64,000 nt of DNA from the NCBI RefSeq assembly GCF_003688895.1, contig NZ_REFV01000010.1, positions 1-64,000 of the forward strand, written 5' to 3'. Source of the stretch: Dokdonia sinensis. Lineage in GTDB: Bacteria > Bacteroidota > Bacteroidia > Flavobacteriales > Flavobacteriaceae. The notes under the pieces were generated by a model. The model did not search any database, was not told where the DNA came from, and was given only the letters and a program-made list of their open reading frames with translations. Both the position numbers and the translations under genes were made by a program. This document shows positions 973 through 64,000 of the stretch, one piece after another; the first letter of the stretch is position 1, and every line of letters begins with the position of its first letter.

Positions 973-2063
973 AATGCGCTTACTCCTTTACGATCACTAC
1001 TCGGTCGGAAACTCTGTAGCACCAAGTAAAATTGCACTCCAAATAACAGCGCAGCTATGACTAGGTGAAGCGGTTGACTTGTAAAAGGAAAATCTAGATA
1101 ATACATCGCCACACCAGTAATAACTTCTAGCCCAATCAGAATCAAAACCCAATTAAGAAGTGCCGTATGTCCTAAATTCAACTTACGATTGCGCCAGTAT
1201 ACGTAGACATTTAACAAGGTAACCAGAATCGAAAATGAGCGGTGTACATAAAACCCAAGCGTAGGCGGATCAAGCCAAAGACTCTTAACCTCATAACCTA
1301 CCTTAGAAACACGCTCATCCACATATTGCCTTACCTGTGTACCCATAGCTACTTGCACCAATGTCAGCATCACCGCGATTAACATTAAATATTTAAATGT
1401 AGGATCGTATATAAGGGAGTGATCCCTTTCAGAAAATACTGTATGATTCGTATTACGCTTTCGCGAAAGCGTAACCTCTCTCTCACGAAGTTTAAACCAT
1501 AAGAATAGTAAGAGTCCCGCAATTACAAGCGCTGCAATCATATGGATCGTAATTTTTACAGGAGTAAGGTTACTATCTACAACAAGTTTTCCCAACCAAG
1601 CCTGAAATCCCATAAGCGGCAAGACAAGAAATGAAGCAAAAATAAGCCACGGACGACCTTTCCAATACCAGAAGGCAAAAACAACCATAAGCAACATCGG
1701 GATTCCTGCCAAAACTGTAACCAGCCTATTAATGTACTCAATCCAAGTATGCCATTTATTAAAGCTCGAATAATCGTGCTTTGTATAGCGCTCCCAATTT
1801 TGAGCATTATAGCTTGAAGTTGTTTCAAAATCTGCAGAAGCAACACGTAATTCCTTATTTCTAATAATAACCTGCCCCTCTTTATAAAATCTATTTGCTT
1901 CCCATTCTAAATCTGCCTCTTCTTGTGGCGGGATGTAATACCCAAAACATTTAGGCCAGTCAGGACAGCCCATACCACTACCAGTCATACGTACCACAGC
2001 ACCTGCGACGATAATGAGATATAAAAATATGATGGAAATTTTAAGACTATTGCGATACCACAT
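969..2063 (-). CDS. ctaA: Heme A synthase (CtaA/COX15)
   Basis: This multi-pass inner-membrane protein oxidises the C8 methyl of heme O to give heme A for cytochrome c oxidase. It has about eight hydrophobic segments, the family signature VVRMTGSGMGCPDWPKCFG with a cysteine pair near the N-terminus, and four helix histidines expected as heme ligands (in KWHTWIEYINR, TIHMIAAL, YVHRSFS and PLHLVIAAL). The frame stays open to an ATG at 2114, but that adds 17 hydrophobic residues. I prefer the ATG at 2063 (MWYRNSLK), which places the first membrane segment and the signature where the family has them. The stop overlaps the downstream lipoprotein start by ATGA. A copy of the TTTCGCGAAA palindrome is read as LSRKR in a loop. 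Confidence 0.9.
   Translation of the reverse strand: MWYRNSLKISIIFLYLIIVAGAVVRMTGSGMGCPDWPKCFGYYIPPQEEADLEWEANRFYKEGQVIIRNKELRVASADFETTSSYNAQNWERYTKHDYSSFNKWHTWIEYINRLVTVLAGIPMLLMVVFAFWYWKGRPWLIFASFLVLPLMGFQAWLGKLVVDSNLTPVKITIHMIAALVIAGLLLFLWFKLREREVTLSRKRNTNHTVFSERDHSLIYDPTFKYLMLIAVMLTLVQVAMGTQVRQYVDERVSKVGYEVKSLWLDPPTLGFYVHRSFSILVTLLNVYVYWRNRKLNLGHTALLNWVLILIGLEVITGVAMYYLDFPFTSQPLHLVIAALLFGVQFYLVLQSFRPSSDRKGVSAL
1456..1471. repeat. Iterated palindrome CGCTTTCGCGAAAGCG (type copy)
   Basis: A perfect 16-bp palindrome, extended on both sides to TTACGC...GCGTAA. It lies in ctaA and is read as LSRKR in a variable loop. The core TTTCGCGAAA occurs 24 times in this window; by chance under 0.1 copies would be expected. 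Confidence 0.95.
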
Positions 2064-2139
2064 GCGCTCAATGATTAGGAATACAAAAATAACGAAATGA
2101 CAAAAGCTTCTCATAAACTCAAATCAATAAAAACAAAAA

Positions 2140-2164
2140 GGCCTTTCAAAAAAATTGAAAGGCC
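2140..2164 (-). terminator. Intrinsic terminator of the lrp-like gene
   Basis: The arms GGCCTTTCAA and TTGAAAGGCC are followed, reading leftwards, by TTTTTGTTTTT. It sits 23 bases past the stop of the Lrp-family gene. Confidence 0.8.
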
Positions 2165-2186
2165 CTTAAATTATATTTCGAGACAT

Positions 2187-2747: not shown

Positions 2748-3875
2748 CTACAACGTTATCGTTAGGTCGATACTGTTATTCCATTCTGTAAGCGTATCCC
2801 CTACTTCTATTTTCTTATCTTCCTCATCATAAAGTCCTGCAGAACTAATTGCAATCTCCTTATGGCCAAAAAACCTATCTAAATCCCCTATTTGAGAGAC
2901 TTTAGGAACGAATAAGACTTTATTACCCTGGAGCACCTCTTCGTACTGTACAGCGATATCATCTCCAGAGCTATTTCTTAAAATAATGTCAAAAAAGCAC
3001 TTTTGATGTTCTGGTATTTTAAAATAGTCACCATCTACATCTTCTTTTTTCAACGCAATACCCGCTAAAGCTATTGAAATTGCAGCAAATACATAGCCTC
3101 TTGTGACCTCGCGCTCATAATCATCAGGGTAATGCCCAGCCTCAAATAAAATTGTCGGAATACCAGCCGCCATGAAAGTATCTCCAGTACAATTGAGATT
3201 AAAGTCATCGTCGTAACGTCCTATTTTTCCTGAAAGTTGTGGATTTAGGCCATTATATATATGAGAAATAATATTCATAGCCCGCTTTCGCGAAAGCGTA
3301 ACACTACGCCCTTCATCACCAGAAGGAGCTAAAAACGAGAGCACAGATAGCGCCCCCGAAGCCTCAAAACCATAAATTGTGCGCTGTCCGTGTAGGTTAA
3401 AACAGTAATCTGGTTTAAAATCTTCAAAAATCTTAGCTAGAACTTGGCTTTCTGGTTGCGTAAGATCCTGCGCATCCCTATTTAAATCTACTTGAGCTGC
3501 ATTTACCCTAGTGTAAGCCTGAGCTCCATCAGGGTTGAGCATAGGGATGATTATAATTGTAAAATGCTCCGATACCCAATCAAAGTTCTTATCTGCATCA
3601 TCTACAGCTTTAAATAGGTCAAATACTGCCTTTGTTGTAGTGCTTTCATTACCGTGCATTTGGGACCACATCAAGATCTTTATTTTACCTTGACCAAACT
3701 CAATAGCATAAATAGGACGCTCTTCTACAGAATGACCTAAGACACTAATCTTAAATGAGGACGATAAATCATCTATCAAAGGTTCAATCTGATGCAGATT
3801 TATATAGCGTCCTTTAATGACTTTTTGATGATTGCTCTTATGCCAATCTAATAAATTTTCCAATTGTAAATTCAT
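2748..3875 (-). CDS. M14-family zinc carboxypeptidase
   Basis: The 375-residue protein carries the M14 zinc site HxxE (MHGNES, H74 and E77), a later FNLHGQR histidine as probable third zinc ligand, and a C-terminal catalytic-glutamate context (TILFEAGHYPDDYERE). It therefore probably removes C-terminal residues from peptides. I see no signal peptide, so it is probably cytoplasmic. It is transcribed divergently from an XRE-type regulator; a 14-base element (TACAAATGTAAACA) lies just upstream of both genes, which suggests shared control. The iterated palindrome is read as LSRKR in a loop after the DEGRSVT segment. The substrate is not known. Confidence 0.85.
   Translation of the reverse strand: MNLQLENLLDWHKSNHQKVIKGRYINLHQIEPLIDDLSSSFKISVLGHSVEERPIYAIEFGQGKIKILMWSQMHGNESTTTKAVFDLFKAVDDADKNFDWVSEHFTIIIIPMLNPDGAQAYTRVNAAQVDLNRDAQDLTQPESQVLAKIFEDFKPDYCFNLHGQRTIYGFEASGALSVLSFLAPSGDEGRSVTLSRKRAMNIISHIYNGLNPQLSGKIGRYDDDFNLNCTGDTFMAAGIPTILFEAGHYPDDYEREVTRGYVFAAISIALAGIALKKEDVDGDYFKIPEHQKCFFDIILRNSSGDDIAVQYEEVLQGNKVLFVPKVSQIGDLDRFFGHKEIAISSAGLYDEEDKKIEVGDTLTEWNNSIDLTITL
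3283..3298. repeat. Iterated palindrome, full 16-mer
   Basis: Perfect copy within the M14 peptidase gene, read as LSRKR; flanked by GTAAC on one side. Confidence 0.95.
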
Positions 3876-3879
3876 AAGA

Positions 3880-8083: not shown

Positions 8084-9373
8084 TTAAATTTTAATGATTT
8101 CCGCAAGTCGGCTTGTTAGTTCGCGCCTATGATATTTATTTATCTCAACAGATTTTACACTTAAATCTTTACTTGAGATAAAGCCCTTAAATTTCTCTAA
8201 AACAAAGTGCTTTATCTCTTCTTTCGAATTATATGTAAAGTACTTTCCAGCACCAGTCTGGTCTATAATTGCCTCAACATCTCCTTCGGCGGGACCTACT
8301 GCGAGGATAGGTCTGCGTGAAGCTAGATATTCAAATAATTTTCCTGCGATAATACCTTTAGTGATGGTGGCGTCTATTTCTATAAGCAACAAAATGGAGG
8401 CCTGTCGCTGTAATATCAACGCTTCTTTGTGGGATACATAACCCAATACTTCTAAGTTTTCGGCGAGTCCTTGGGTGGCGATGGAGTCTATGACTTCTTG
8501 GCTTACTTTTCCGGCTAGTTTTATTTTTAACGCTTTCGCGAAAGCGGAATACTCTTCTTTCAACTGCGCAATTGCCTTCCACAATGATTTAGGATTACGG
8601 TCAGACAGCAAAGAACCGACGTGTGAAATGGTAAAAGTGTCGTCCACCGGAACCTCTGGAATTCCCTCATCATCAAACCCATTAGTAATCACGTGAATAG
8701 GTTTTTGTGTAATCGCCTCAAATTCTCTAGCTGTAGAAGGGCTTGTGACTATAACTTTATCTGCCATTTGTAATACCTCCTGCTCTAGCCTTTTATGCTT
8801 TGCCTTTGTATTTGTGGTCATTTTAAGCTTGTCGTGATACCCAATTGTAGTCCACGGGTCACGAAAATCTGTGATCCATTGCATTTCTGGAAACTCCTTT
8901 TTAAGGCCAAGACCTATTAAATGCAAGCTGTGCGGAGGTCCGGTCGTAATGATGGTCTCAATGCTGTTATCTGAAATATACTTCCTAAGAAACCGCACAG
9001 AAGGCTTTACCCAAAGGATGCGTGCATCAGGAACAAAGAAATTTCCGCGGATGTATAGCATCGCTTTTTGCAAGAAACTTTGCTTTCTCTCCTTTGGAAT
9101 AATTCCTGAGGAAATTGATTTTGTTTGCTTTCGCGAAAGCTTACTCGCCCACCCATAAGGCTCCGTGATAGGATGTTTTATAATTGTGATGCCCTGAGTG
9201 ACTTCATTAACTAAAGTCTCGTCCACCAAAGGATAACTAGGATTTTCAGGGATAAAAACTACAGGCTCAATACCAAATTCTGGTAAATACTTTACAAACT
9301 TAAGCCACCGCTGTACGCCTGGTCCACCCGCGGGAGGCCAATAGTAACATATGATAAGTGCTTTTTCAGCCAT
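8084..9373 (-). CDS. Glycosyltransferase, GT4 family
   Basis: The 429-residue protein begins with the GT-B opening loop (LIICYYWPPAGGPGVQRWLK). Its second half has the nucleotide-sugar donor region: FTISHVGSLLSDRNPKSLWK, then an EVLGYVSHKEAL segment and GIIAGKLFEYLASRRPILAV (the E-x7-E-like stretch). It should transfer a sugar to a lipid- or polymer-linked acceptor at the inner membrane. It lies between the YfhO-like gene (1-base gap) and the flippase. Two copies of the iterated palindrome fall inside it, one read as AFAKA and one as LSRK, both between conserved blocks. Donor and acceptor cannot be told. Confidence 0.88.
   Translation of the reverse strand: MAEKALIICYYWPPAGGPGVQRWLKFVKYLPEFGIEPVVFIPENPSYPLVDETLVNEVTQGITIIKHPITEPYGWASKLSRKQTKSISSGIIPKERKQSFLQKAMLYIRGNFFVPDARILWVKPSVRFLRKYISDNSIETIITTGPPHSLHLIGLGLKKEFPEMQWITDFRDPWTTIGYHDKLKMTTNTKAKHKRLEQEVLQMADKVIVTSPSTAREFEAITQKPIHVITNGFDDEGIPEVPVDDTFTISHVGSLLSDRNPKSLWKAIAQLKEEYSAFAKALKIKLAGKVSQEVIDSIATQGLAENLEVLGYVSHKEALILQRQASILLLIEIDATITKGIIAGKLFEYLASRRPILAVGPAEGDVEAIIDQTGAGKYFTYNSKEEIKHFVLEKFKGFISSKDLSVKSVEINKYHRRELTSRLAEIIKI
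8531..8546. repeat. Iterated palindrome, full 16-mer
   Basis: Perfect copy in the GT4 gene, read as AFAKA; flanked by GGAAT. Confidence 0.95.
9127..9140. repeat. Iterated palindrome, 14-mer
   Basis: GCTTTCGCGAAAGC, second copy in the GT4 gene, read as LSRK about 600 bp from the first. Confidence 0.93.
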
Positions 9374-13032: not shown

Positions 13033-13470
13033 CTAATTTGTTATAAATGGTGCTGGAGCATTCTGAAATTCTGATACCACCTCCAGCTGTGCAGTACTTT
13101 GATTAAACATTTTAGACATTACTCCAAAAGCTTGCTTTGCCTTTAGTACAGCAACTTCTTCATTTTCATAGGTTCCTTCGTATCCTGCGTTTTGGTTAAG
13201 TTGGGAAAATAGGCCTATGGCGATGATTACCGTTGCCGCTACGCTGGCTATCCAGCTCCAGTTGCGTTTCTTAGATGGTATTTTGATGGTAGTGGGTAGT
13301 GTTTCTTGTTGCGCTTTCGCGAAAGCGGAAAACATCCCACAATATACTTCTAGATGAGGAGCAACGTCCTCTCCAGTGAAGTAATCGCGTAGGGTTTTCT
13401 CCTCGACCAAAGTCGTCTCGCCCTCAAAATAGCGTTCCAATAAAACCTCAATCCTTTTAACGGATTCCAT
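13033..13470 (-). CDS. Putative membrane anti-sigma factor
   Basis: The 145-residue protein has an N-terminal cytoplasmic part (about 1-68) opening with an I-x-x-LLERYFEGETTL motif common in Bacteroidetes proteins paired with ECF sigma factors. One membrane helix (about 71-90, WIASVAATVIIAIGLFSQ) and a short periplasmic tail follow. It overlaps the sigma gene by 14 bases. By position and layout it should hold the sigma factor at the membrane; no zinc-type anti-sigma motif is visible. The palindrome is read as AFAKA in the cytoplasmic linker. Confidence 0.7.
   Translation of the reverse strand: MESVKRIEVLLERYFEGETTLVEEKTLRDYFTGEDVAPHLEVYCGMFSAFAKAQQETLPTTIKIPSKKRNWSWIASVAATVIIAIGLFSQLNQNAGYEGTYENEEVAVLKAKQAFGVMSKMFNQSTAQLEVVSEFQNAPAPFITN
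13312..13327. repeat. Iterated palindrome, full 16-mer
   Basis: Perfect copy in the anti-sigma candidate gene, read as AFAKA just before the membrane helix. Confidence 0.95.
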
Positions 13471-15097: not shown

Positions 15098-15805
15098 ATG
15101 GATAACATTGATATTTTCGGGCGTGCACTTCAGGATTATCACGAGGATTATTATTCAGAGGACATTGTCGTGCACTCCTCTATCGCCGAAGATGATGTGA
15201 TTCCCATCCCCTATTTATTTCGTGAGTTTGAAGAGATGCCAGTTATTGAGCAAAAGGCGCTTGAGCTTTGCAAAGGAAAAACGCTGGACATCGGCTTCGG
15301 TGCTGGTAGCCACTTAATGTGGTTGCAAGACAACGATATTGATGCTAGTGGAATTGATATTAGTGAAGGTGCGGTTACGCTTTCGCGAAAGCGTACTCTA
15401 AAAAACACGCATCACGCTCATCTTTTAGAATATCAAGGTACTTACGACACACTATTATTGCTGATGAACGGCACAGGAATTTTTGAAAAAGTATCCAAAG
15501 TAGACGAATACCTAAAACATTTAAAATCACTCCTCGCCGAAGGTGGACAAATTTTAATAGATGGCTCCGATATTAAATATATGTACGAGGACGAGGACGG
15601 CGGGTTATGGATTGATACGCATCGTGACTATTACGGGGAAGTGACGTATGCTATGAGCTATAAAGGGCAACGTGGAGCAACCTTTGACTGGCTCTACTTG
15701 GATTTTGAGCTTTTGAAATATTACGCAAATAAAAATGAGCTCAACTGTGAGCTCATTTTAGAAGGTGACCATTACGAGTATCTCGCACGGCTTACTGTTG
15801 CATAA
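15098..15805 (+). CDS. Class I SAM-dependent methyltransferase
   Basis: The 235-residue protein has a Rossmann-type SAM-binding motif I (TLDIGFGAGSHLMWL, about 61-75), an acidic end of strand 2 (DIDASGIDISEGAV) and a later motif (LLAEGGQILIDGSDI). The C-terminal DFELLKYYANKNELNCE helix is typical of this group. The substrate is unknown. It is divergent from the YkgJ-like gene, only 22 bases apart, and its 3' end overlaps the convergent DUF2059 gene by 14 bases. The palindrome is read as LSRKR just after motif II. Confidence 0.85.
   Translation: MDNIDIFGRALQDYHEDYYSEDIVVHSSIAEDDVIPIPYLFREFEEMPVIEQKALELCKGKTLDIGFGAGSHLMWLQDNDIDASGIDISEGAVTLSRKRTLKNTHHAHLLEYQGTYDTLLLLMNGTGIFEKVSKVDEYLKHLKSLLAEGGQILIDGSDIKYMYEDEDGGLWIDTHRDYYGEVTYAMSYKGQRGATFDWLYLDFELLKYYANKNELNCELILEGDHYEYLARLTVA
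15378..15393. repeat. Iterated palindrome, full 16-mer
   Basis: Perfect copy in the methyltransferase gene, read as LSRKR; TTAC precedes and TAC follows, the same extension as at 1456. Confidence 0.95.
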
Positions 15806-17229: not shown

Positions 17230-19272
17230 CTAATCTTTTAAATCAAGAGGAACAGTCATCTTCACCTCTTCCAGTTGCAAATCTTCTCCATACTTCATAA
17301 GATAAACAGCGTCATTGTAAAAACCACTGGATCCATCATTTGAGTAGTGAAACTTATGCTCTATATATTGTGTCTCTACTCCTGAGGCAGCTGCTTGAAA
17401 AAGATCATCTGCATACGCGAGTCTTAAAATTACATCGTAGGCAATATCATAACCTCTTTTTGCAACCATACTTGGACTTACATCAAACATATCTTCGTAA
17501 GCATCATCAAAAGACAAAGTTGTTTCAGACAATATCTCTTTGCTAAAAGATGGAAAATGAAACTTGAGATTCATAAGGTGCATATGTTGTATCTCGTCAC
17601 TGTCATAAGCAGACCCCTTATCAGTGGTAAAGAGCGTCACATTTTTATCGGCAACCATAGTATTTAGGCTAGTGGTTACATTACTTATAAGAGGTACATC
17701 ATTAGTTTCAAGAATTACCCAATTATCTTGTGTTGCAGAAATCTGCTTTGGAATATCATCGGGGTATAAATAATACCCGCTATCGCTAGACCTAGGAGTC
17801 ACTGTTTTTGCTGTCGGGAATAAAGCCATAAGTTTAGACTTATTCGAGCTGTTCTTAGCATCTGCGATGATGACGATATTTTTTCCCTGCCCGTTTGCTT
17901 TTAAATAAGACAGCATACGATCTCTTAATATTTTGTCACTTGGTCTCGTCTGGAAAGTCGTGTTGCGCATCTCTATGCCTGAACTCAAAGCAATTAAGGG
18001 AATTCCTTTTCTGCTCAGCAGTGAAGAAGCGCGATTAACGTTAGCCTTAATTAATGGTCCAATAACCACATCTACATCGTCAAAATTATTTCTCGCGATT
18101 ATATCGTCTATTTTACGTGCATTTACTGAAGCTCCGTTTTTACGGTCATATTCGGTATCATAAACCTCCAAGTTTACTGACAATCCTTCTTTTTTTGCTT
18201 GATCTATGGCCATCAGTATACCAGAGTGAAAATCCAGCGCAAGTCTAAGTACGCGATCGCTTTTTAAAAGTTTCTCTTTGGTCATTGTAGAATCACCATT
18301 TATCCTCTTAAGACCAAATGGTAACATAACCACCATTTTTTTTGCAGAAGTGTAAGTGATACTATCTCTTAAATCTATAAAATCTCCCTTTTCACTCGGT
18401 GTGATATCAATATTAGTATTAACAACGATACCACCTTTTGCTTTTGGAATTTTAAGTACCATTCCTTCCTTAAGGCCATCGGCTAGTGCAGGATTCAGAT
18501 CTACCAGAGCATCTGCATTCATCTCAAGACGCTTTAAAAGGCTGTACATCGTATCGCCTTTTGGCACTTCATAAAAATCAAACTCCGTTTTGTCTATTAC
18601 TTCTGTAGAAGAAGGCTTTTTTCTAGGGACATTAATGGTTGTCCCCATCTGAAGGCCTTTTCCCATTCCTGGGTTCATTGCTTCAAGCTCAGCTATTGTT
18701 ATTCCATAGCGTTGTGCAACACCGTACTTCGTTTCTTTAGGCTGGACTTTATATTTTTCGTAAGGATTTCCGTCTGTAGGGATGTTGTTAGGAGATACTC
18801 CTCCTCCACTTTGCTCGACAACAGTTGTCGTTGTCTCCTTATAATTCGTTGGGATTTTTATCTTGTCCCCCTTTCGCAAGGGCGAACTATATAATTGTTT
18901 ATTGTAACGCTTGATAACGTCCTGTGGGACTCCATATCTTTTTGAGATACTGTAAAGTGTTTCTTTACGACGTACTTTATGGGTTTTAAATGTGATATCC
19001 TCTTGATCCATATCTATCGCTCTAGGCTTCTTTGCCTTTGCCTCTGATGGTAAAATGAGTACTAATCCCTCATAAATATTCTTACGAGCGTCAGGGTTCA
19101 ATTTTAGGATTTGCTTTTCGTCTATGTTGTACTTTTTTGAGATACTGTACACGGTTTCACCTGCTTGTACCTGGTGAGAAACATAATCCTGAAAAGCGGT
19201 GGAGGTTGATGTACACGCTTTCGCGAAAGCGCAACAAAAAACAATCAATCCTATAAAAAGTGATTTCTTCAT
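17230..19272 (-). CDS. LysM-repeat protein with a periplasmic-binding-protein-like domain
   Basis: The 680-residue exported protein has four LysM domains (about 31-76, 95-141, 172-217 and 231-276, each with a V-x-x-G-E/D-T-x-Y-S/G motif) that should bind peptidoglycan. A type I periplasmic-binding fold follows (about 310-680; DVVIGPLIKANVNRASSLLS, GIPLIALSSG, GKNIVIIADAKNSSNKSKLM), similar to the receptor-like half of LpoA. It may sense or organise cell-wall synthesis; this is inference. The gene lies 9 bases downstream of guaA. The palindrome sits in the signal peptide, which reads CCAFAKACTS, so it forms part of the export signal. Confidence 0.85.
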   Translation of the reverse strand: MKKSLFIGLIVFCCAFAKACTSTSTAFQDYVSHQVQAGETVYSISKKYNIDEKQILKLNPDARKNIYEGLVLILPSEAKAKKPRAIDMDQEDITFKTHKVRRKETLYSISKRYGVPQDVIKRYNKQLYSSPLRKGDKIKIPTNYKETTTTVVEQSGGGVSPNNIPTDGNPYEKYKVQPKETKYGVAQRYGITIAELEAMNPGMGKGLQMGTTINVPRKKPSSTEVIDKTEFDFYEVPKGDTMYSLLKRLEMNADALVDLNPALADGLKEGMVLKIPKAKGGIVVNTNIDITPSEKGDFIDLRDSITYTSAKKMVVMLPFGLKRINGDSTMTKEKLLKSDRVLRLALDFHSGILMAIDQAKKEGLSVNLEVYDTEYDRKNGASVNARKIDDIIARNNFDDVDVVIGPLIKANVNRASSLLSRKGIPLIALSSGIEMRNTTFQTRPSDKILRDRMLSYLKANGQGKNIVIIADAKNSSNKSKLMALFPTAKTVTPRSSDSGYYLYPDDIPKQISATQDNWVILETNDVPLISNVTTSLNTMVADKNVTLFTTDKGSAYDSDEIQHMHLMNLKFHFPSFSKEILSETTLSFDDAYEDMFDVSPSMVAKRGYDIAYDVILRLAYADDLFQAAASGVETQYIEHKFHYSNDGSSGFYNDAVYLMKYGEDLQLEEVKMTVPLDLKD
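19216..19231. repeat. Iterated palindrome, full 16-mer
   Basis: Perfect copy in the signal peptide region of the LysM protein, read as AFAKA. Confidence 0.95.
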
Positions 19273-20954: not shown

Positions 20955-20959
20955 AAATG

Positions 20960-21033
20960 TGAGCCCTGAAGGATTCGAACCTTCGACCGCCTCCTTAGAA
21001 GGGAGGTGCTCTATCCAGCTGAGCTAAGAGCCC
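20960..21033 (-). tRNA. tRNA-Arg (anticodon TCT)
   Basis: On the reverse strand the acceptor stem GGGCTCT pairs with AGGGCTC (with G-U pairs). The anticodon stem CCTCC/GGAGG holds the loop CTTCTAA, giving TCT. The T arm is GAAGG-TTCGAAT-CCTTC. CCA is not encoded. It is the third gene of a Ser-Pro-Arg cluster. Confidence 0.93.
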
Positions 21034-21047
21034 TAACTCTTAAGTTG

Positions 21048-21122
21048 TCGGGGTAGCAAGATTCGAACTTGCGACCTCCTCGTCCCAAACGAGGCGCGAT
21101 AACCGGGCTACGCTATACCCCG
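21048..21122 (-). tRNA. tRNA-Pro (anticodon TGG)
   Basis: Acceptor CGGGGTA pairs with TACCCCG. The anticodon stem CCTCG/CGAGG holds the loop TTTGGGA, giving TGG. The T arm is GCAAG-TTCGAAT-CTTGC. It lies 14 bases upstream of tRNA-Arg. Confidence 0.93.
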
Positions 21123-21202
21123 AAAAGCAACTACGTTGCAAAAAAAATAAAAAAATGAATTCTAAATTCCTAAAAATGGTCTTTAAAATTCATCTTCTAT
21201 CG

Positions 21203-26548: not shown

Positions 26549-26562
26549 GCTTTCGCGAAAGC
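26549..26562. repeat. Iterated palindrome, 14-mer, intergenic
   Basis: GCTTTCGCGAAAGC between parE and the small lipoprotein gene; the only intergenic copy that keeps both full arms. Confidence 0.93.
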
Positions 26563-28427: not shown

Positions 28428-28536
28428 AAAGTATCGTAGAGTCGCTAATATAAGGACTTGCGACACCTTAATGCAACAAGAAAAACAGAAGTAATTAACA
28501 ATTTAATAGATACGGTTGTTAATTGTTTTTTTAGCC

Positions 28537-28550
28537 CGCTTTCGCGAAAA
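28537..28550. repeat. Iterated palindrome, one arm degraded, intergenic
   Basis: CGCTTTCGCGAAAA between parE and the divergent gene at 28630. Confidence 0.85.
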
Positions 28551-42391: not shown

Positions 42392-42405
42392 CGCTTTCGC
42401 GAAAG
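42392..42405. repeat. Iterated palindrome, one arm shortened, intergenic
   Basis: CGCTTTCGCGAAAG upstream of pyrR; TTA precedes it. Confidence 0.88.
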
Positions 42406-47738: not shown

Positions 47739-50552
47739 ATGCGTATTTTCTCAATACTATGTATCCTAACATTCTTCATAAGTAGCTGTTCTCAAAACAC
47801 ACCAGAAAATTGGAATTGGGAAACTATGGAGGCTACAGGTGCTCCTACCGCAAGGCACGAGGCGGGAATGGTAGGATATAAAGACCAGCTCATTTTAATG
47901 GGTGGACGACGTATCAATCCCACTTCAGTTTTTAACACTAAAACAAATACGTGGACCCAAAAAGCAGAAACTCCAATTGAGTTGCACCACTTTCAGCCCG
48001 TTGTGATAGATGATGCCGTGTATATTGTGGGCGCAATGACAGGTCAATGGCCCAATGAAACGCCAGTAGATAGAGTGATTATCTATTACCCAGAAAAAGA
48101 TGAATACGTTCACAGTCACGACATTCCTGAGGCGCGCCGTCGCGGTGGCGCTGGAGCGACTGTTTATAATGGTAAGATATATCTAGCTGGAGGAATTACA
48201 AAAGGTCATATGAATGGTTATGTACCGTGGCTAGATGTGTATGACCCAAAAACTGGTAAGTGGGAAATATTACCCGACGCTCCACAAGCTAGAGACCATT
48301 TTCAAGCAGTTACTGTAAATGATATGTTATATGCTTTTGCCGGTCGTACGACCTCAAAAATCACAGAACAAGATATGGCGCTCACGGTTGCTCACGGCGA
48401 TAGATTTGACCTAAAAAATAACAAATGGCTTCCTGTCATAAATGCCACTAAAATTCCTACCGAACGTGCAGGAAATATGGCTATTGTATGGAATGACGAA
48501 GTCATAATAGGCGGTGGCGAAAGCACCGCACACGTAGTTGCTCATAATGAGACAGAAGTCTATAATCCCAAAACGCAACAATGGAGCCTCTGGCCTACGC
48601 TTAATCAAGGTAGACACGGAACAGGTTTTGCGATTATTGGTGATTATTTATACACGGCCTCTGGATGCGGTAATCGTGGTGGCGAGCCAGAATTAACGAC
48701 GGTAGAACGCCTCGAACTTCCTAAAGGTAACGCGGAGCCTATCTCCACTACAATTAATAAAACACCTGTTCACAAGCAATTCCACAGCCTAGAATTATCA
48801 TTTAATGGACCCGAAACTTCGGAAGATGCTCCGGATAATCCGTTTCTGAACTACAAGCTCGAGGTAACATTTAAAAACGAAAAACAGAGCCAAATCATAC
48901 GAGGTTTCTACGCTACAGATGGTAACGCATCTGAGACTAGCGCTACGTCGGGTAACGTATGGAAAGTTCGTTTTAATCCGCAATCTGTTGGGGAGTATTC
49001 GTATGAAGCTCGGCTTTGTAAGGGAGATAGCATTGCGCTTAAAGAACCTTCAGATGTCACTGAGCAAATTCCTTTAAAAGAAAATACGGGCGCATTTACC
49101 GTCGTACGTTCTGATAAGGAAGGCGCCAATTTTAATTCACACGGAATATTAGAAATGGAAGAGGGATTTTTCCGCTTTCGCGAAAACTTGCCCCGAATTA
49201 ATTTCGGGGGAGGTAAACATTTCATTAAAACCGGCGCAAACAGTCCAGAAAATCTGCTGGCTTATGTAGATTTTGACGACACCTACCGTATCAAAGCCGA
49301 AGCACGAGAAGGCGAAGCCGAAGCTCCCGAAGCTATCCACACGTTTTCTCCGCATTTAAATGATTGGAAAAATGGTGACCCGTCGTGGAAGAATGGAAAA
49401 GGAAAAGCAATCATAGGTGCGATGAATTATCTTGCTTCTAAAGGAATGAATTCGTCATATTTTCTAACCCTCAATATTCTAGGCGACGGTAAGGATGTTT
49501 GGCCGTACCTGACTCCAGATGATTTTACACGATTTGATGTGAGCAAGCTAGAGCAATGGGAAATCCTATTTGAGCATATGCAGTCTCAAGGTATTTTACT
49601 CCACCTCGTCGTGCAAGAAACCGAAAACGAAACGATGCTTGATAATGGTGAGACTGGACCGTTTCGCCAATTGTATTTTCAAGAGCTGATTGCTCGTTTT
49701 GGTCATCATAATGGTCTCGTTTGGAATCTAGGCGAAGAAAACGGTCCTGCTCCTTGGACTCCCGTAGGGCAAAATGATGCGCAACGTAAGGCAATGGCAT
49801 CGTATTTAAAAGCTAATGACCCTTACAAGCATCCTGTACTTTTACACACCCATTCCTACGACCCGTTGCGTAGTGATATTTTAAATGACATCGTAGGCGA
49901 TAAAAACATAGACGGACTTTCCCTACAGCAAGCCGACCGTAAAAAAGCAGGCGTAATTATAGCCGAATGGAAAGAGAAATCACGCAAAGCGGGAGCTCCG
50001 TGGGGAATTACAATGGACGAGATAGGAGAATGGCACACGGCTGTCCTTCCTGATAGTATAGACGCACACCACAATACCATACGTCATTATGCGATGTGGG
50101 GAACATTACTGTCTGGCGGTGCAGGGTTGGAGTGGTACTTTGGCGCAAAATATCCTTCTAATGACCTCACTTCTGAAGACTGGCGCAAACGGGATAATCT
50201 ATGGACCCTTACAAATCACGCTCGCTTATTTTTTGAAAACTACCTACCCTACTGGGAAATGCACCCCAATCACAACTTGATTAATACATCTGAAGCCTAT
50301 TCTTTAGTCAAGGAAAATGAAATCTATGTCACATACCTTCCAAAGTTTGGACAACATACTTTAAATTTAGAAGATGCAACGGGTACTTTTAAAGTGCACT
50401 GGTACAGTCCTGTTTCAGGAGGTGAGCTTCAAAATGGCTCTGTAACAACTATCCAAGGTGGGACGATTCAGAGCTTAGGTAATCCTCCAAATGAAAAGCG
50501 CTCTTCAGGAAGCTATGAGGATTGGGTAGTATTAGTAAGGAAGGAAAATTAA
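47739..50552 (+). CDS. Kelch / DUF5060 / glycoside-hydrolase-like lipoprotein
   Basis: The 937-residue protein has a lipobox (FISSC, Cys at about 17). A Kelch beta-propeller (about 25-330) follows with repeats such as GKIYLAGGITKG and YDPKTGKWEILPDAPQ. Next is an Ig-like DUF5060 domain (about 345-460), then a TIM-barrel-like region (about 470-830) with candidate acid/base and nucleophile in LVWNLGEENGPAPW and GITMDEIGEWH. The C-terminus (about 850-937) resembles the putative collagen-binding domain that follows such barrels. It probably acts on a polysaccharide at the cell surface. The barrel family is not certain. The palindrome is read as RFRE. Confidence 0.8.
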   Translation: MRIFSILCILTFFISSCSQNTPENWNWETMEATGAPTARHEAGMVGYKDQLILMGGRRINPTSVFNTKTNTWTQKAETPIELHHFQPVVIDDAVYIVGAMTGQWPNETPVDRVIIYYPEKDEYVHSHDIPEARRRGGAGATVYNGKIYLAGGITKGHMNGYVPWLDVYDPKTGKWEILPDAPQARDHFQAVTVNDMLYAFAGRTTSKITEQDMALTVAHGDRFDLKNNKWLPVINATKIPTERAGNMAIVWNDEVIIGGGESTAHVVAHNETEVYNPKTQQWSLWPTLNQGRHGTGFAIIGDYLYTASGCGNRGGEPELTTVERLELPKGNAEPISTTINKTPVHKQFHSLELSFNGPETSEDAPDNPFLNYKLEVTFKNEKQSQIIRGFYATDGNASETSATSGNVWKVRFNPQSVGEYSYEARLCKGDSIALKEPSDVTEQIPLKENTGAFTVVRSDKEGANFNSHGILEMEEGFFRFRENLPRINFGGGKHFIKTGANSPENLLAYVDFDDTYRIKAEAREGEAEAPEAIHTFSPHLNDWKNGDPSWKNGKGKAIIGAMNYLASKGMNSSYFLTLNILGDGKDVWPYLTPDDFTRFDVSKLEQWEILFEHMQSQGILLHLVVQETENETMLDNGETGPFRQLYFQELIARFGHHNGLVWNLGEENGPAPWTPVGQNDAQRKAMASYLKANDPYKHPVLLHTHSYDPLRSDILNDIVGDKNIDGLSLQQADRKKAGVIIAEWKEKSRKAGAPWGITMDEIGEWHTAVLPDSIDAHHNTIRHYAMWGTLLSGGAGLEWYFGAKYPSNDLTSEDWRKRDNLWTLTNHARLFFENYLPYWEMHPNHNLINTSEAYSLVKENEIYVTYLPKFGQHTLNLEDATGTFKVHWYSPVSGGELQNGSVTTIQGGTIQSLGNPPNEKRSSGSYEDWVVLVRKEN
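49173..49185. repeat. Iterated palindrome, one arm degraded
   Basis: CGCTTTCGCGAAA in the Kelch/glycosidase gene, read as RFRE. Confidence 0.85.
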
Positions 50553-53540: not shown

Positions 53541-53553
53541 TTTTCGCGAAAGC
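53541..53553. repeat. Iterated palindrome, one arm shortened, intergenic
   Basis: TTTTCGCGAAAGC upstream of mazG and downstream of the DUF5606 gene. Confidence 0.85.
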
Positions 53554-54715: not shown

Positions 54716-55126
54716 TTATAAATTATACAGGTAATCTTGTAAAATAATAGTCGCACTTATCTGGTCTACAAGTGCTTTGTTTCTTCTCTTTTTCTTTCCT
54801 AAACCGCCATCTATCATCGTCTGGAACGCCATTTTTGAGGTAAAACGCTCATCTTGTCTAATGATTTTGAGGGTAGGGAATTTTTTTTCTACGCTTTCGC
54901 GAAAGCTTAAAATATGCTCTTCCACCTGTGAAGCCTCGCCGCTCATACGTTTGGGCTCGCCCAACACCATTGTCTCTACATTTTCTTCTGCCAAATATTT
55001 GGTTAGAAAATCCATAAGAGTTTTAGTCTCCACAGTAATAAGTCCAGAAGCAATCATCTGCAACTCATCTGTTATCGCGATTCCCGTGCGTTTTGTTCCG
55101 TAATCTATCGCAATAATGCGTGCCAT
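54716..55126 (-). CDS. ruvX: RuvX/YqgF Holliday junction resolvase-like nuclease
   Basis: The 136-residue RNase H-like protein has the first catalytic Asp in IIAIDYGTKRTGIAIT, a VLGEPKRMSGE segment and the late RQDERFTSKMAF and KALVDQISATIIL motifs. YqgF processes pre-16S rRNA in E. coli and resembles Holliday resolvases. A palindrome is read as FRES in the loop ILSFRESVEKKF. It precedes def. Confidence 0.92.
   Translation of the reverse strand: MARIIAIDYGTKRTGIAITDELQMIASGLITVETKTLMDFLTKYLAEENVETMVLGEPKRMSGEASQVEEHILSFRESVEKKFPTLKIIRQDERFTSKMAFQTMIDGGLGKKKRRNKALVDQISATIILQDYLYNL
54892..54906. repeat. Iterated palindrome, 15-mer
   Basis: CGCTTTCGCGAAAGC in ruvX, read as FRES. Confidence 0.93.
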
Positions 55127-56168: not shown

Positions 56169-57230
56169 ATGAAGTTTCTCATTATTCAGCAAAAGATGAT
56201 AGGCGATGTTCTTACATCGTCTATTTTGTGTGAATCGCTTAAAAAGCGATATCCAGATAGTGCTGTGCATTATCTTGTAAATAGCCACACTATCCCTGTG
56301 CTGGATAATAACCCATATATAGATAAACTTATTCTATACACTCCAACAATGGAGAAAAATAGTGCAGACAGAAAACAACTACGACAAATTCTAAAAGCAG
56401 AGGATTACGATGCAGTTATGGACGTTTATTCTAAAATAGGAAGTGCCAGAATTGCAAATGCTACAAAAGCCCCAAAGATTATTGGATATAAAAAGTGGTA
56501 TACCCGATTTATGTATACGCACGTTTTTAGGTACAATACTGTTCCCGAAACAGAGGCTGGTTTGGCGGTAGAGAACAGAATGATGTTGTTGCAACCTATT
56601 GCTCCAGATTTCCCTAAGGAAGTTAAACCTAAAATATATTTGAGGGAAGAGGAGATCGCTTTCGCGAAAGCGGAATTAAAAAAATACGCCGTCTCCACCT
56701 CAAAACCCATCTTTATGATTGGTGTTTTGGGCAGCTGCCCCGAAAAAACATACCCACTAACCTATCTCGCCCAAGTATTGGACTTCATTGTCCTAAAGAC
56801 AGAAGCAACACTTTTACTAAACTATATTCCAAATCAAAAGGATGACGTAGAGAAACTCATTGCTCATTGTAATAGCGCTACTCGCGACCATATAAAAGAA
56901 GATGTTTACGGCAAGAGTCTACGTGAGTTTATTGCATTAACAAACGAATGTACGGCCTACATAGGAAACGAAGGCGGTGCGGCAAATATGGCAAAGGCCA
57001 TAACTATACCTACATTTTCTATATTCTCGCCTTGGATCACAAAAGCTGCCTGGGCACTTTATCTAAACGAGAATAATATAGCCATACATCTTGCAGATTA
57101 TAAAGCCTCTCTTTACAAAGAGAAAACCTTAAAAGAAATACGAAAACGCGTTCATCATTATTACGAAAAGTTGGAACCTGATCTTTTTAGAAAAGAACTA
57201 GATGAGTTTTTGAAAAAATTTATTTTATAA
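56169..57230 (+). CDS. Glycosyltransferase, GT9 family (heptosyltransferase-like)
   Basis: The 353-residue GT-B protein starts with FLIIQQKMIGDVLTSSILCE (the family's N-terminal G-D-V-L-x-T/S loop). The donor-binding segments are MIGVLGSCPEKTYP and TAYIGNEGGAANMAKAITIP. It should add a heptose-like sugar to the inner core of LPS or a related surface glycan. Its 3' end overlaps the convergent epimerase gene by 11 bases. The palindrome is read as AFAKA between the two halves. Confidence 0.88.
   Translation: MKFLIIQQKMIGDVLTSSILCESLKKRYPDSAVHYLVNSHTIPVLDNNPYIDKLILYTPTMEKNSADRKQLRQILKAEDYDAVMDVYSKIGSARIANATKAPKIIGYKKWYTRFMYTHVFRYNTVPETEAGLAVENRMMLLQPIAPDFPKEVKPKIYLREEEIAFAKAELKKYAVSTSKPIFMIGVLGSCPEKTYPLTYLAQVLDFIVLKTEATLLLNYIPNQKDDVEKLIAHCNSATRDHIKEDVYGKSLREFIALTNECTAYIGNEGGAANMAKAITIPTFSIFSPWITKAAWALYLNENNIAIHLADYKASLYKEKTLKEIRKRVHHYYEKLEPDLFRKELDEFLKKFIL
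56657..56672. repeat. Iterated palindrome, full 16-mer
   Basis: Perfect copy in the GT9 gene, read as AFAKA; flanked by GGAAT. Confidence 0.95.
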
Positions 57231-59820: not shown

Positions 59821-59821
59821 T

Positions 59822-60497: not shown

Positions 60498-60509
60498 GCT
60501 TTCGCGAAA
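60498..60509. repeat. Iterated palindrome, one arm degraded, intergenic
   Basis: GCTTTCGCGAAA between the DinB-like gene and the PPIase gene. Confidence 0.8.
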
Positions 60510-61476: not shown

Positions 61477-61574
61477 TGTTGTCTATTTTAATGAGCCGCA
61501 AAGATACCATATAGTAAGAAGTTAGACGAATGAGTGTGGAGATTTTTCGGCTCTTGAAATGAGTTCTGAGTCAA

Positions 61575-61587
61575 TTTCGCGAAAGCG
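61575..61587. repeat. Iterated palindrome, one arm shortened, intergenic
   Basis: TTTCGCGAAAGCG upstream of the M14 peptidase at 61664. Confidence 0.82.
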
Positions 61588-61663
61588 AACCCCTATCCAC
61601 TATATAGAACTGATTTTTTGTAGTATTTTTAAAATCCGACGTTTAACCAAACACTATTACACA

Positions 61664-64000
61664 ATGCGATTACTACTTTCTCTATGTCTTTCTCTTCTAT
61701 TTGCTACCGCCTATGCTCAAACCGGTGAGGTCGATATGGAGTACTATTTGCCAAAAGATATTACCTATAACCCCAACATCCCGACACCAGAAAGTGTGAT
61801 AGGCTATACCCCTGGAGAATGGCACGTAAGCCACGACAAGCTCTCGGAATATATGCGCACGCTTGCGGCTGCGAGTGACCGTATGACCATAGAAAATAGA
61901 GGGACAACTTTTGAAGGGCGACCTATCCTACTGCTCACGGTTACATCACCATCAAACCACGCAAACATAGACAACATTAAAAAAGAGCACCTAAAACTTG
62001 TGGAAGATGGTAGCGCTTCTCTCAATACTGAGAATATGCCCATTGTTGTGTATCAAGGACTTTCTATACACGGAAACGAGCCTAGTGGCGCAAATGCTGG
62101 ACTCGTAGCCGCCTACTACCTTGCCGCTGCTCAAGGTCAGAAAATAGATGAATTACTTAAAAATACGGTCATCCTTTTTGACCCCTCATTTAATCCTGAT
62201 GGCTTACAACGCTTTGCATATTGGGCAAACACTAACAAAAGCATAAACATAAACCCAGATCCTCAGGATAGAGAATATGATGAAGTATGGCCTGGTGGTC
62301 GTACAAACCACTATTGGTTTGATATGAATCGTGACTGGTTACCGGTACAGTTGCCAGAATCGCGTGCGCGCATTGCAACATTTCACGATTGGTACCCAAA
62401 CATTTTGACAGACCATCACGAGATGGGAAGCAATTCCAGCTTTTTCTTCCAGCCCGGGATACAGTCTCGCACGCACCCACTTACTCCTGCTCTCAATCAA
62501 GAACTTACAAAACAAATAGGTAATTATCACGCAAAGGCGCTGGATAAAATAGGAAGCTTTTATTATACGGAGGAAAGCTTTGACGATTTTTACTATGGAA
62601 AAGGGTCTACGTTTCCAGATATTAATGGTGGTATCGGGATTTTATTTGAGCAAGGAAGTAGTCGCGGGCACGCTCAAGAGACGGTAAACGGTCTTCTTGA
62701 ATTTCCGTTTACCATACGCAATCAGTTTACCGCCATACTCTCTACGCTAGATGCTGCTCAGGGTATGAGAAAGCAATTGCTGGACTATCAACGCGACTTC
62801 TTTAAAAATGCTCGTGGTGAAGAAAAAGGTGGTGCATATGTTTTTGGCAATGAAAAAGATGCGGCAACAGCCTATCATCTAGCCGAAGTACTTAAACGTC
62901 ATAAAATAAAAGTGCACGATGTAAAAGGCAGCTTTCGCGAAAGCGGTAAAAATTTTAAAAGCGGTTATTCCTACATAGTTCCCAAAAACCAGAGACAAAG
63001 CAGACTCATCAAGGCGATGTTTGAAAAGCGCACAAAGTTTCAGGACAGCTTGTTTTATGATATAAGTGCCTGGTCTTTCCCGCTGGCCTTTGGATTGGAT
63101 TTTTCTGAAAATGCCTCATTAAGCAATGCTGGAAACGAAATTCAAGATTTGAAAATGCGCACGCCTAAAAATGTATCTCAAAGTAACTACGCCTACTTAA
63201 TGGAATGGCACGAATACTATGCCCCAAAGGCGCTGAATATGATTCTGGAAAAAGGACTGCGAGCAAAAGTGGCGATGGAAACATTCTCGCTCGCAGGTAC
63301 TTCCTATGATTATGGGACAATTATGATTCCTGTTCAAAACCAAGAACTCTCGGCTTCAGAAATGGGAGCCTTTCTTAACAAAGTAGCTCAAGAAGCACAT
63401 ATTGATATCACAGCTGTGGCTACTGGACTTACTGAGGGTATCGATTTAGGAAGTAATCAATTTAGACCACTCTCGCCAGCAAAAGTGGCTATTCTCGTAG
63501 GAGAGGGTACAAATAGTTATGATGCTGGAGAAATCTGGCATTTATTTGATACTCGATATCAAATGAAAATTACAAAACTCGACGTGAAGGATTTTAATCG
63601 GGCTGACATAAGTAAGTATACTGATATTATCCTGCCAGCTTCTTACGGAGCTTATGATAAAACTATAGCCGATAAATTAAAGGGCTGGGTGCGCAATGGT
63701 GGAACATTAATAGGCTACCGCAATGTTGCAAACTGGCTGGAGAATAACAAAATGCTCAATATCGACTTTGTCAAAACTGAAAATCCTGCTAAAAATGTAA
63801 CTTTTGAGCAGCGCAGGGATTTTAGCGGTGCGCAGGTTATAGGAGGAGCGATTTTTGAAGCAAATCAGGACAGATCACATCCTATTAATTTTGGGTACAC
63901 TAATGACAAAATTTCTTTATTTAGGAATACCACAATATTTGTAAAAGCCGATTCTACGAGTTATAAAAACCCTATAAGATATACTAAGAACCCATTACAA
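61664..64000 (+). CDS. Secreted M14-family zinc peptidase with a GATase-like domain (runs off the window)
   Basis: The frame starting MRLLLSLCLSLLFATAYAQ (signal peptide) appears open to the window end, about 779 codons. It has the M14 zinc motif (YQGLSIHGNEPSGANAG, HxxE), a DMNRDWLP stretch and the DHHEMGSNSSFFFQPG segment. After about residue 600 a glutamine-amidotransferase-like segment follows (VAILVGEGTNSYDAGEIWHL, ILPASYGAYDKTIADKLKGW, VRNGGTLIGYRN). It is probably an exported carboxypeptidase; the C-terminal end is missing here. The palindrome is read as FRES between the two domains. Confidence 0.82.
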   Translation, partial: MRLLLSLCLSLLFATAYAQTGEVDMEYYLPKDITYNPNIPTPESVIGYTPGEWHVSHDKLSEYMRTLAAASDRMTIENRGTTFEGRPILLLTVTSPSNHANIDNIKKEHLKLVEDGSASLNTENMPIVVYQGLSIHGNEPSGANAGLVAAYYLAAAQGQKIDELLKNTVILFDPSFNPDGLQRFAYWANTNKSININPDPQDREYDEVWPGGRTNHYWFDMNRDWLPVQLPESRARIATFHDWYPNILTDHHEMGSNSSFFFQPGIQSRTHPLTPALNQELTKQIGNYHAKALDKIGSFYYTEESFDDFYYGKGSTFPDINGGIGILFEQGSSRGHAQETVNGLLEFPFTIRNQFTAILSTLDAAQGMRKQLLDYQRDFFKNARGEEKGGAYVFGNEKDAATAYHLAEVLKRHKIKVHDVKGSFRESGKNFKSGYSYIVPKNQRQSRLIKAMFEKRTKFQDSLFYDISAWSFPLAFGLDFSENASLSNAGNEIQDLKMRTPKNVSQSNYAYLMEWHEYYAPKALNMILEKGLRAKVAMETFSLAGTSYDYGTIMIPVQNQELSASEMGAFLNKVAQEAHIDITAVATGLTEGIDLGSNQFRPLSPAKVAILVGEGTNSYDAGEIWHLFDTRYQMKITKLDVKDFNRADISKYTDIILPASYGAYDKTIADKLKGWVRNGGTLIGYRNVANWLENNKMLNIDFVKTENPAKNVTFEQRRDFSGAQVIGGAIFEANQDRSHPINFGYTNDKISLFRNTTIFVKADSTSYKNPIRYTKNPLQ
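62931..62945. repeat. Iterated palindrome, 15-mer
   Basis: GCTTTCGCGAAAGCG in the M14 peptidase gene, read as FRES in the loop KGSFRESGKN. Confidence 0.93.

Follow-up and report, generated by a model that had tools for sequence, protein, structure and literature searches.

An evenly spaced palindrome in Dokdonia and Nonlabens genomes: a candidate signal for DNA self-recognition or chromosome marking

What purpose might be served by a palindrome that recurs throughout a bacterial genome at regular distances? The question was raised by a 64-kb stretch of Dokdonia sinensis DNA (here called the window), the initial annotation of which likened the repeated word to HIP1 of cyanobacteria and offered as candidate roles a binding site for a nucleoid- or chromosome-organizing protein, an uptake-type signal, or a methylase- or restriction-related site. 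The form and distribution of the palindrome suggest a signal by which DNA is recognized as self or the chromosome is marked.

Abundance and form of the palindrome

The core, TTTCGCGAAA, occurs 24 times in the 64,000 bases of the window, compared with a mean of 0.14 and a maximum of 1 in 100 dinucleotide shuffles. Recounting reproduced the first tally exactly, in number and in position: 24 cores, 15 copies of the 14-mer GCTTTCGCGAAAGC, and 8 of the 16-mer CGCTTTCGCGAAAGCG, extending from a 16-mer that starts at position 1456 to a final core that ends at 62942 (62945 with a three-base extension) (Table 1).

TABLE 1 Copies of the palindrome in the window, assigned to open reading frames (ORFs) of 60 aa or more; conservation refers to comparison with six congeners
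Site	Position	Location	Frame	Conservation
16-mer	1459..1468	inside ORF 969-2114(-)	LSRK
16-mer	3286..3295	inside ORF 2748-3875(-)	LSRK
16-mer	8534..8543	inside ORF 8084-9373(-)	AFAK	gap-free absence in 5/5 alignable congeners
14-mer	9129..9138	inside ORF 8084-9373(-)	LSRK	core conserved in 6/6
16-mer	13315..13324	inside ORF 13033-13470(-)	AFAK
16-mer	15381..15390	inside ORF 15098-15805(+)	LSRK
16-mer	19219..19228	close to start of ORF 17230-19272(-)	AFAK
14-mer	23216..23225	close to start of ORF 21494-23293(-)	AFAK
14-mer	26551..26560	intergenic		core conserved in 2/2 alignable
core, not full 14-mer	27608..27617	inside ORF 26571-28466(-)	FRES	core conserved in 4/6
core	28540..28549	close to start of ORF 28516-29388(+)
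14-mer	29291..29300	inside ORF 28516-29388(+)	LSRK	core conserved in 5/5 alignable
core	30334..30343	inside ORF 29673-31520(+)	LSRK
14-mer	33472..33481	inside ORF 32875-33777(-)	AFAK
core	37788..37797	inside ORF 37499-39076(+)	LSRK
core	42395..42404	intergenic
16-mer	46824..46833	inside ORF 46323-47657(-)	AFAK
core	49176..49185	inside ORF 47739-50552(+)	FRE
core	53542..53551	intergenic
14-mer	54895..54904	inside ORF 54716-55126(-)	FRES
16-mer	56660..56669	inside ORF 56169-57230(+)	AFAK
core	60500..60509	inside short 77-aa ORF, possibly not a gene
core	61575..61584	intergenic
14-mer	62933..62942	no called ORF covers site

The excess is strong and is not local to the window. The source genome holds 857 copies of the 14-mer and none of a reversed control, each of 17 further Dokdonia genomes examined carries 369 to 905 copies, and in 2.13 Mb from two Dokdonia genomes the core was found 662 times against 1.9 expected (Markov-2 model). 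The word is thus neither close to its Markov expectation nor confined to one type of mobile element, the two outcomes that the initial annotation had set against its proposal. Among palindromic 10-mers in 464 kb of the source genome, the core had 141 copies and the runner-up 11.

Outside Dokdonia, genome-wide carriage was detected in our family and phylum samples only in Nonlabens (700 sites in genome G273) and in lineage G222 (559 sites). The on/off distribution between sampled genera is clean, and the core is sharp. Overall, this is a palindrome of 14 to 22 bases, present about once per three thousand bases in two marine genera and an additional lineage. Noncarrier genomes showed no conspicuous repeated word, an uninformative result given the approximately 4 to 9 kb looked at per genome. 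A literature search with exact strings, and with Dokdonia or Nonlabens plus palindrome, returned no description of the word in titles and the openings of abstracts.

The core is usually part of GCTTTCGCGAAAGC and has the extended form TTNCGCTTTCGCGAAAGCGNAA; strongly shared sequence among sites spans only about 22 bp. The flanks are symmetric and base-skewed over about 30 bp, the left side being C-poor and the right side G-poor, such that, on either strand, the 5′ side is rich in G and T and the downstream side in A and C. We found no pairing between flanks around the palindrome beyond that given by composition and no T-run downstream of sites. Dokdonia and Nonlabens have the same word with similar flanks. 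The counts and the symmetric flanks bear out the initial description of a HIP1-like, palindromic repeat without polarity.

Placement, spacing, and turnover of sites

With genes delimited heuristically, 240 of 519 sites are intergenic, where intergenic DNA makes up 8.6% of bases, and site density is about nine times higher between genes. The other 279 sites lie within heuristic ORFs and use all three frames. Distances from stop codons cluster, with 71 of 237 falling at 10 to 20 bp, and density is 2.34/kb in convergent gaps versus 1.03/kb in divergent gaps.

Sites keep their distance from one another. Mean spacing in genome G016 is 2,931 bp with a coefficient of variation (CV) of 0.565, compared with 0.92 to 0.96 for random placement; the CV is 0.476 in G273 (first 100 of 700 sites) and 0.674 in G222 (first 100 of 559 sites), against random means of 0.92 to 0.99. 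Neighboring sites are avoided within about 1 to 2 kb (0 of 99 intervals in the Nonlabens genome are shorter than 1.25 kb), and the hazard of meeting the next site climbs in a roughly linear way up to about 3 kb, beyond which it flattens, apart from small tail bins. Mapping along G016 gave 18 to 30 cores per 80-kb bin, 44 in a single 130-kb bin, and 5 in the last 20-kb bin. An ori/ter pattern, which the initial annotation had suggested looking for, was not seen: sites are uniform along the chromosome, with no gradient, and are neither confined to nor excluded from the ori or ter domain. In a molecular-drive model, 3-kb fragments with a gain/loss of 1 (the best of 24 parameter sets, chosen by eye) produced a mean of 2,840, a CV of 0.61, and a hazard nearly as observed; the model would suit any benefit that extends over 3 kb, uptake being only one.

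Stretches of about 10 to 19 kb without sites do occur. A 19.4-kb example in G016 contains an integrase; in other long gaps we found curli genes, sugar/symporter/glutaminase genes, or an adhesin-like gene next to ABC-permease and pterin genes, and not every one is an acquired island. In 71 kb from two lytic Nonlabens phages that closely resemble each other, there is no site. Sites with host-like flanks do occur on phage contigs (27 in 158 kb), in a set of nine contigs that were picked for having sites and are not all independent.

Between two species with 73% nucleotide identity, 22 sites were common and 14 and 13 were unshared, while random 10-mers were identical in 6% of cases; one site was conserved in 11 of 11 species although its flanks had changed. 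A gap lay no more than 31 bp away from 19 of 27 unshared sites (background, 16%). In the 15 gapped cases displayed, the net length difference ranged from −27 to +22, mostly −9 to +7, and two (+19 and +22 bp) were close to the motif length. Ungapped replacement of sites was also seen between species, and the alignments contained no inserted unit of constant size at sites. In oriented multispecies alignments, one cluster shows gaps. Of five half-site positions, four showed no clear excess of the single-mismatch relics that neutral turnover might have left.

Weighing the alternative readings

HIP1 and the alternate HIPs of cyanobacteria are, like this word, highly iterated, lineage-limited palindromes, and HIP words correlate with methylases (PMC4390886). 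The similar repeat style might suggest a word maintained by an orphan DNA methyltransferase reading TCGCGA, CGCG, or a similar internal sequence, the methylase role initially proposed, but the Dokdonia word is longer (14 to 22 bp) and evenly spaced, with a refractory zone that a methylase alone would probably not explain. Moreover, three methylase families were each missing from several near-complete carriers: 10 of 18 Dokdonia genomes lacked a PF00145 match, as did G273 and G222; PF01555 was above the cutoff in 1 of 18 Dokdonia genomes; 4 of the 13 Dokdonia genomes tested lacked a PF02086 match, as did G042, G273, and G222; and G009, G010, and G273 had none of the three. We therefore consider this role very doubtful. 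A transcription terminator or mRNA-stabilizing hairpin would suit a self-complementary word that often lies just past stop codons and is denser in convergent gaps, but it is hardly credible given the sites within ORFs in every frame, the missing T-run, and the A/C-rich downstream side, and it would leave the regular spacing unexplained; the hairpin was rejected on the flanks, which do not pair beyond composition. A small self-inserting palindromic element of the REP/MITE/RPE type, to which the high copy number, the gap excess near unshared sites, and the two differences of about motif length could point, is extremely improbable: there is no constant unit, most length differences are small, ungapped replacements occur, sites avoid one another, and strong sharing stops at about 22 bp. 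We also think it quite unlikely that the palindrome is a bidirectional Chi-like or self-marking site that signals “self” to a RecBCD/AddAB-type or defense nuclease from either side. Its density is of the order of that of Escherichia coli Chi, with 1,008 copies in 4.64 Mb (PMC1939737). A palindrome can be read from both directions, G/T-rich DNA lies 5′ of this one on each strand, and several phage contigs carry sites, but the two similar lytic phages have none. Chi and KOPS are also frequent genomic words, but they are oriented, and known Chi words are short, whereas the Dokdonia word is a palindrome with symmetric flanks; it is limited to three sampled genera, while such nucleases are widespread.

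The main rival to an uptake signal is a site for a chromosome-organizing protein, a putative dimer that would make symmetric contact over up to about 70 bp and need one site per 3 to 4 kb to compact the DNA, form loops, or control supercoiling. Selection would maintain a site within reach, and near neighbors would be useless. The symmetric extended motif with flanks unpaired beyond composition, the regular spacing and uniform chromosome coverage, the strict core, and the word and similar flanks common to Dokdonia and Nonlabens argue for such a protein; the tolerance of about 10 to 19 kb without sites, the hazard that does not rise further past 3 kb (small tail bins aside), and the absence of an ori/ter pattern argue against it. 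Sites for Noc, SlmA, MatP, and ParB are palindromes of about 13 to 16 bp for dimeric proteins, but they occur in tens of copies within particular regions of the chromosome, in contrast to the hundreds of 14-mers per Dokdonia genome and their uniformity in G016. We regard a chromosome-organizing role as a serious but rather unlikely explanation. Spacing, permissive placement, and the site-free integrase island modestly favor the uptake type over this other role proposed at the outset. Our leading explanation is that cells recognize their own DNA by the palindrome, as by a DNA uptake sequence; this may well be so, although we stop short of calling it probable. The genome- and genus-wide excess, the near match of the drive model, the lack of a constant inserted unit, the pattern of shared and unshared sites between species, and the two site-free lytic phages also speak for it.

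A possible self-DNA word in the genomes of Dokdonia and Nonlabens

Uptake sequences are evenly spaced and in excess in noncoding DNA (PMC1939737), their spacing matches conversion tracts (PMC2397512), and they are scarce in acquired segments (PMC7811141). The palindrome resembles the DUS of Neisseria and the USS of Pasteurellaceae in distribution: hundreds to thousands of copies, even spacing, a noncoding excess that includes positions after stop codons, conserved positions, a flank preference beyond the core, and spacing similar to recombination-tract length (PMC1939737, PMC2397512, PMC7811141). The known uptake words described in PMC1939737 are not palindromes, whereas the Dokdonia word is palindromic with symmetric flanks, and 23% of H. 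influenzae USS10 copies are ≤100 bp from another (PMC7811141), a proximity foreign to the Nonlabens intervals.

If the palindrome is an uptake signal, a putative receptor of the uptake apparatus, probably a symmetric dimer, would bind it and prefer DNA bearing it in Dokdonia and Nonlabens. Incoming fragments, effectively of about 3 kb, would enter via ComEC, the gene for which is present, and then recombine. Biased uptake would seed new sites at positions that tolerate sequence change and have no site within the fragment length; because sites would be gained only beyond a fragment length of another, even spacing would result. Sites would come to lie between genes, behind stop codons, and wherever a coding stretch permits, whatever the frame; some recently acquired DNA would lack them.

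ComEC was found without an internal stop in 21 of 21 carriers (as a contig-end fragment only in G001 and a shorter frame in G007). It was also found in 14 of 14 noncarriers examined and is therefore not discriminating; nothing that we found ties the word to competence, and our literature search turned up no account of Dokdonia being naturally transformed. Also unfavorable to the uptake reading are the sites on phage contigs, the long gaps that are not acquired islands, and the lack of a clear relic excess. Tree branch lengths made faster ComEC evolution in carriers seem likely, and the G000 and G016 proteins are 45% identical, below 85% of 155 reciprocal best pairs. Acceleration was rejected because the distance ratio to a topoisomerase gene was 4.2 in Dokdonia and 4.4 in noncarriers.

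It is possible, though not likely, that a ruler of about 3 kb divides the Dokdonia and Nonlabens chromosome, with a putative dimer reading mutually repelling palindromes. Such a ruler would be the first palindromic uptake code in Bacteroidota or, alternatively, the first nucleoid anchor array that is sequence specific and evenly spaced across a whole genome. Given the number of sites, the clean genus distribution, and the sharp core, both the uptake and the anchor readings are directly testable. An uptake signal would amount to a code for self DNA and offer an independent case on whether such words arise by drive; in the same phylum, R. columbina is reported to prefer its own DNA, in an account with no established word (PMC7965970). 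An anchor would be a chromosome ruler coded in sequence.

Occurrence and sequence of the palindrome

The palindromic signal is real, strong, lineage-limited, and evenly spaced. We detected 24 copies of the 10-bp core TTTCGCGAAA in the 64-kb window (shuffled-sequence mean, 0.14), along with 15 copies of the 14-mer and 8 of the 16-mer that extend it. Nineteen of the cores lie inside open reading frames (ORFs) of ≥60 amino acids, where they occupy all three frames (LSRK, AFAK, and FRES), and five lie outside. Across the genome of D. sinensis (3.65 Mb in 43 contigs, with the window on contig C2), GCTTTCGCGAAAGC occurs 857 times and its reversed control not at all; over 464 kb of it, we counted 141 cores, compared with 11 copies of the next most frequent palindromic 10-mer.

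All 17 Dokdonia congeners examined carry the 14-mer (369 to 905 copies), and the 21 other-genus genomes compared alongside them carry none. In a family sample of 248 genomes from 235 genera, the 14-mer matched in 52, reaching hundreds of copies only in D. sinensis, G042 (578), a Nonlabens genome (G273; 664), and a member of a third carrier genus (G222; 408); the remaining 48 had 1 to 17 copies each. The phylum sample gave matches in 22 of 394 genomes, all except D. sinensis with 1 to 6 copies. Among the 108 16-mer stretches listed from named genomes, 15 bore other names, 5 were from “Flavobacteria bacterium BBFL7,” and the rest were from Dokdonia or Nonlabens.

The extended consensus is TTNCGCTTTCGCGAAAGCGNAA. 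The two flanks mirror each other at 504 sites in the Dokdonia congener G016, with G and T enriched on the left side. C makes up 8% of the left flank at −20 to −10, 13% at −30 to −20, and 17% at −40 to −30 (background, 19%), and at these sites opposite flank positions showed no pairing beyond composition. The skew is seen at intergenic sites and in every coding frame, indicating a DNA-level feature. Flanks at 34 named Nonlabens loci, including 4 from BBFL7 that we assigned to Nonlabens, are similar to those of Dokdonia except for a mixed position −4; five sites from G222 give too small a sample for this comparison. Of the five positions in each half of the core, single mismatches in G016 and D. 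sinensis are clearly over-represented only at the third T (88 observed, 11.9 expected; the others, 6/6.0, 8/7.9, 30/28.1, and 20/15.2). The three other bases are alike in frequency there, and the excess hints at the contact pattern of a putative reader protein.

Spacing, gene context, and turnover of sites

Our sample of the G016 chromosome covered 1.67 of its 3.29 Mb, or half, and consisted of every second 20-kb stretch and a single 70-kb block. The 521 sites in this half, at 18 to 30 per 80-kb bin, 44 in one 130-kb bin, and 5 in the last 20-kb bin, show no ori/ter trend in density. The 440 spacings within stretches have a mean of 2,931 bp and a coefficient of variation (CV) of 0.565, compared with a mean CV of 0.917 (lowest, 0.80) in 1,000 runs of random placement and 0.96 ± 0.04 when the coding/intergenic split was preserved. 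Taken in 500-bp steps, the probability of reaching the next site climbs from 0.025 to 0.35 at 3 kb, after which it holds at about 0.24 to 0.4 up to the smallest bins of the tail. Among the first 100 of 700 cores in Nonlabens G273 (reversed control, 12), spacing averages 4,268 bp with a CV of 0.476, and none of 99 intervals is shorter than 1,250 bp; random placement gave 25 such intervals on average and no fewer than 11 in any of 5,000 runs. The corresponding values in G222 (first 100 of 559 cores; control, 17) are 5,140 bp and 0.674, with 7 such short intervals (null mean, 22; minimum, 9).

We simulated spacing with gain proportional to the share of covering fragments lacking another site and with loss either constant or protected. 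By eye, the nearest of 24 parameter sets (3-kb fragment, gain/loss of 1, constant loss) gave a mean of 2,840 bp, a CV of 0.61, and per-kilobase hazards of 0.10, 0.27, 0.44, 0.47, 0.44, and 0.65, against 0.08, 0.24, 0.41, 0.52, 0.47, and 0.54 observed in G016; protected loss at 3 kb with gain/loss of 0.3 was also near (mean, 3,311 bp; CV, 0.50). As modeled, this supports a length of about 3 kb and not the identity of the process, and any benefit that extends over 3 kb would match the data equally well.

Based on heuristic ORFs of ≥80 amino acids, and after 2 of the 521 sites near stretch ends were dropped, 240 of 519 G016 sites are intergenic versus 8.6% of bases, a ninefold difference in density. 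Coding sites divide by frame as 65, 76, and 138. Convergent gaps hold 2.34 sites per kilobase, tandem gaps 1.94, and divergent gaps 1.03, and the flanking stop codon lies 10 to 20 bp away in 71 of 237 cases.

Across 150 kb aligned between D. sinensis and G016 (73% identity), 22 sites are common, 14 are specific to D. sinensis, and 13 are specific to G016, whereas random 10-mers are identical in 6%. Among the 27 unshared sites, the surrounding 31-bp window is free of gaps at 8 and gapped at 19, against a gapped background of 16%. The 15 gapped cases with enough flank have length differences of −27 to +22, two of which (+19 and +22) are near motif length, and share no common inserted size; these varied differences, together with the ungapped cases, rule out a general inserted unit as the origin of sites. 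Sites instead occupy fast-changing DNA or come in with replaced tracts. All 11 species aligned near a second gyrA/parC-like gene have the core there, with changed flanks, and four positions at the parC locus bear it in 12, 1, 8, and 7 of 14 species.

Coordinates of individual cores, window genes, and copies outside the carrier genera
Feature	Sequence	Position	Strand	Remark
Core	Window	8534		Missing without gaps in 5/5 alignable congeners
Core	Window	9129		Kept in 6/6 congeners
Core	Window	29291		Kept in 5/5 alignable congeners
tRNA-Arg, tRNA-Pro, tRNA-Ser gene cluster	Window	20959-21291	Minus	
892-aa gene	Window	23353-26031		Matches subunit A of DNA gyrase/topoisomerase IV; 55.6% with a Parabacteroides record from a plasmid collection; 72-80% identity among family matches listed
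933-bp pair	G110:C1	2829431-2830377		
933-bp pair	G133:C1	436588-437534		
933-bp pair	G246:C1, G119:C1, G192:C1			
Palindrome in viral contigs	L254, L259, L237 (IMGVR 3300039191_000362)			Transposase in L259; host-like flanks
Palindrome in viral contig	L250			Integrase; host-like flanks

Acquired DNA, phages, and stray copies

The five proteins scanned from the longest site-free stretch in the G016 sample (19.4 kb, extending to the edge of the stretch read) include an integrase, a TonB-type receptor, a P-type ATPase, and an Eco57I methylase; an additional site-free gap measures 16.7 kb. Not all long gaps are acquired islands: another one scanned holds a giant protein with a T9SS signal beside ABC-permease and pterin-binding genes, and others contain either curli genes or sugar, symporter, and glutaminase genes.

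No sites occur in 71 kb of the closely similar lytic Nonlabens phages P12024S and P12024L. These phages (L450 and L451) also lack TCGCGA and contain CGCG only 9 and 10 times in ~35.7 kb each. The 14-mer was found in at least 120 viral stretches. Nine viral contigs picked for bearing sites, some of which look mutually related by flanks or ORF lengths, have 27 sites in the 158 kb read, and proteins from four contigs matched head, tail, integrase, and transposase proteins. Given the transposase, the integrase, and the host-like flanks (see table), the signal seems to have been adopted by some temperate phages.

Several non-carrier genomes hold a few copies clustered within ~10 to 100 kb. Five non-carrier genera have in common two 14-mers exactly 933 bp apart, suggesting one element shared among them. 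Eight proteins scanned from the G110 stretch comprise two P-type ATPases, an AcrB-type pump, an outer-membrane efflux protein, a multicopper oxidase, an ArsP-type permease, a DUF2911 protein, and a PepSY-associated protein; by this content, the stray copies seem to ride a metal-resistance cluster. We infer that carriers were the donors.

Candidate roles of the palindrome

HIP1 words of cyanobacteria are described as accompanying methylases (PMC4390886). The Dokdonia word differs in that no accompanying methylase was found in three families (PF00145, PF01555, and PF02086): none is universal among carriers, and G009, G010, and G273 yielded no member of any. The main rival to an uptake role is a chromosome-organising site, which we consider the less likely of the two. 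The competence protein ComEC (PF03772) was present in every one of the 35 genomes searched, which comprised 21 carriers and 14 non-carriers; among the latter, G207 holds a single stray copy of the word. A ComEC tree of 30 genomes places the three carrier groups together to one side of a branch with support of 91/79, a grouping made uncertain by midpoint rooting and two long branches. Unusually fast ComEC evolution in Dokdonia was ruled out relative to a topoisomerase gene.

Uptake sequences are described as occurring in excess, at even spacing, and more often outside coding DNA (PMC1939737, which also judges their spacing too uneven for a role in compaction), with spacing that agrees with conversion tracts (PMC2397512) and scarcity in acquired segments (PMC7811141). 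At least in part, the palindrome shares the excess, the even and tract-scale spacing, and the preference for non-coding DNA; for scarcity in acquired DNA the picture is mixed, the integrase-bearing stretch and the two lytic phages being free of sites and the selected viral contigs carrying them. It differs in being a palindrome, which known uptake words are not, and in that USS often occur in close pairs, unlike the word in Dokdonia and Nonlabens. Riemerella columbina favours its own DNA; for this species, the authors of PMC7965970 give only A/T-rich k-mers, whose role they leave open. No description of the palindrome turned up in literature searches by exact string and genus, which covered few subscription papers. 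Its distribution resembles that of DUS/USS; we do not claim membership, because palindromy sets it apart and the uptake role is a candidate. As the best explanation, we tentatively propose that the palindrome may serve these bacteria as an uptake-type word marking self-DNA.
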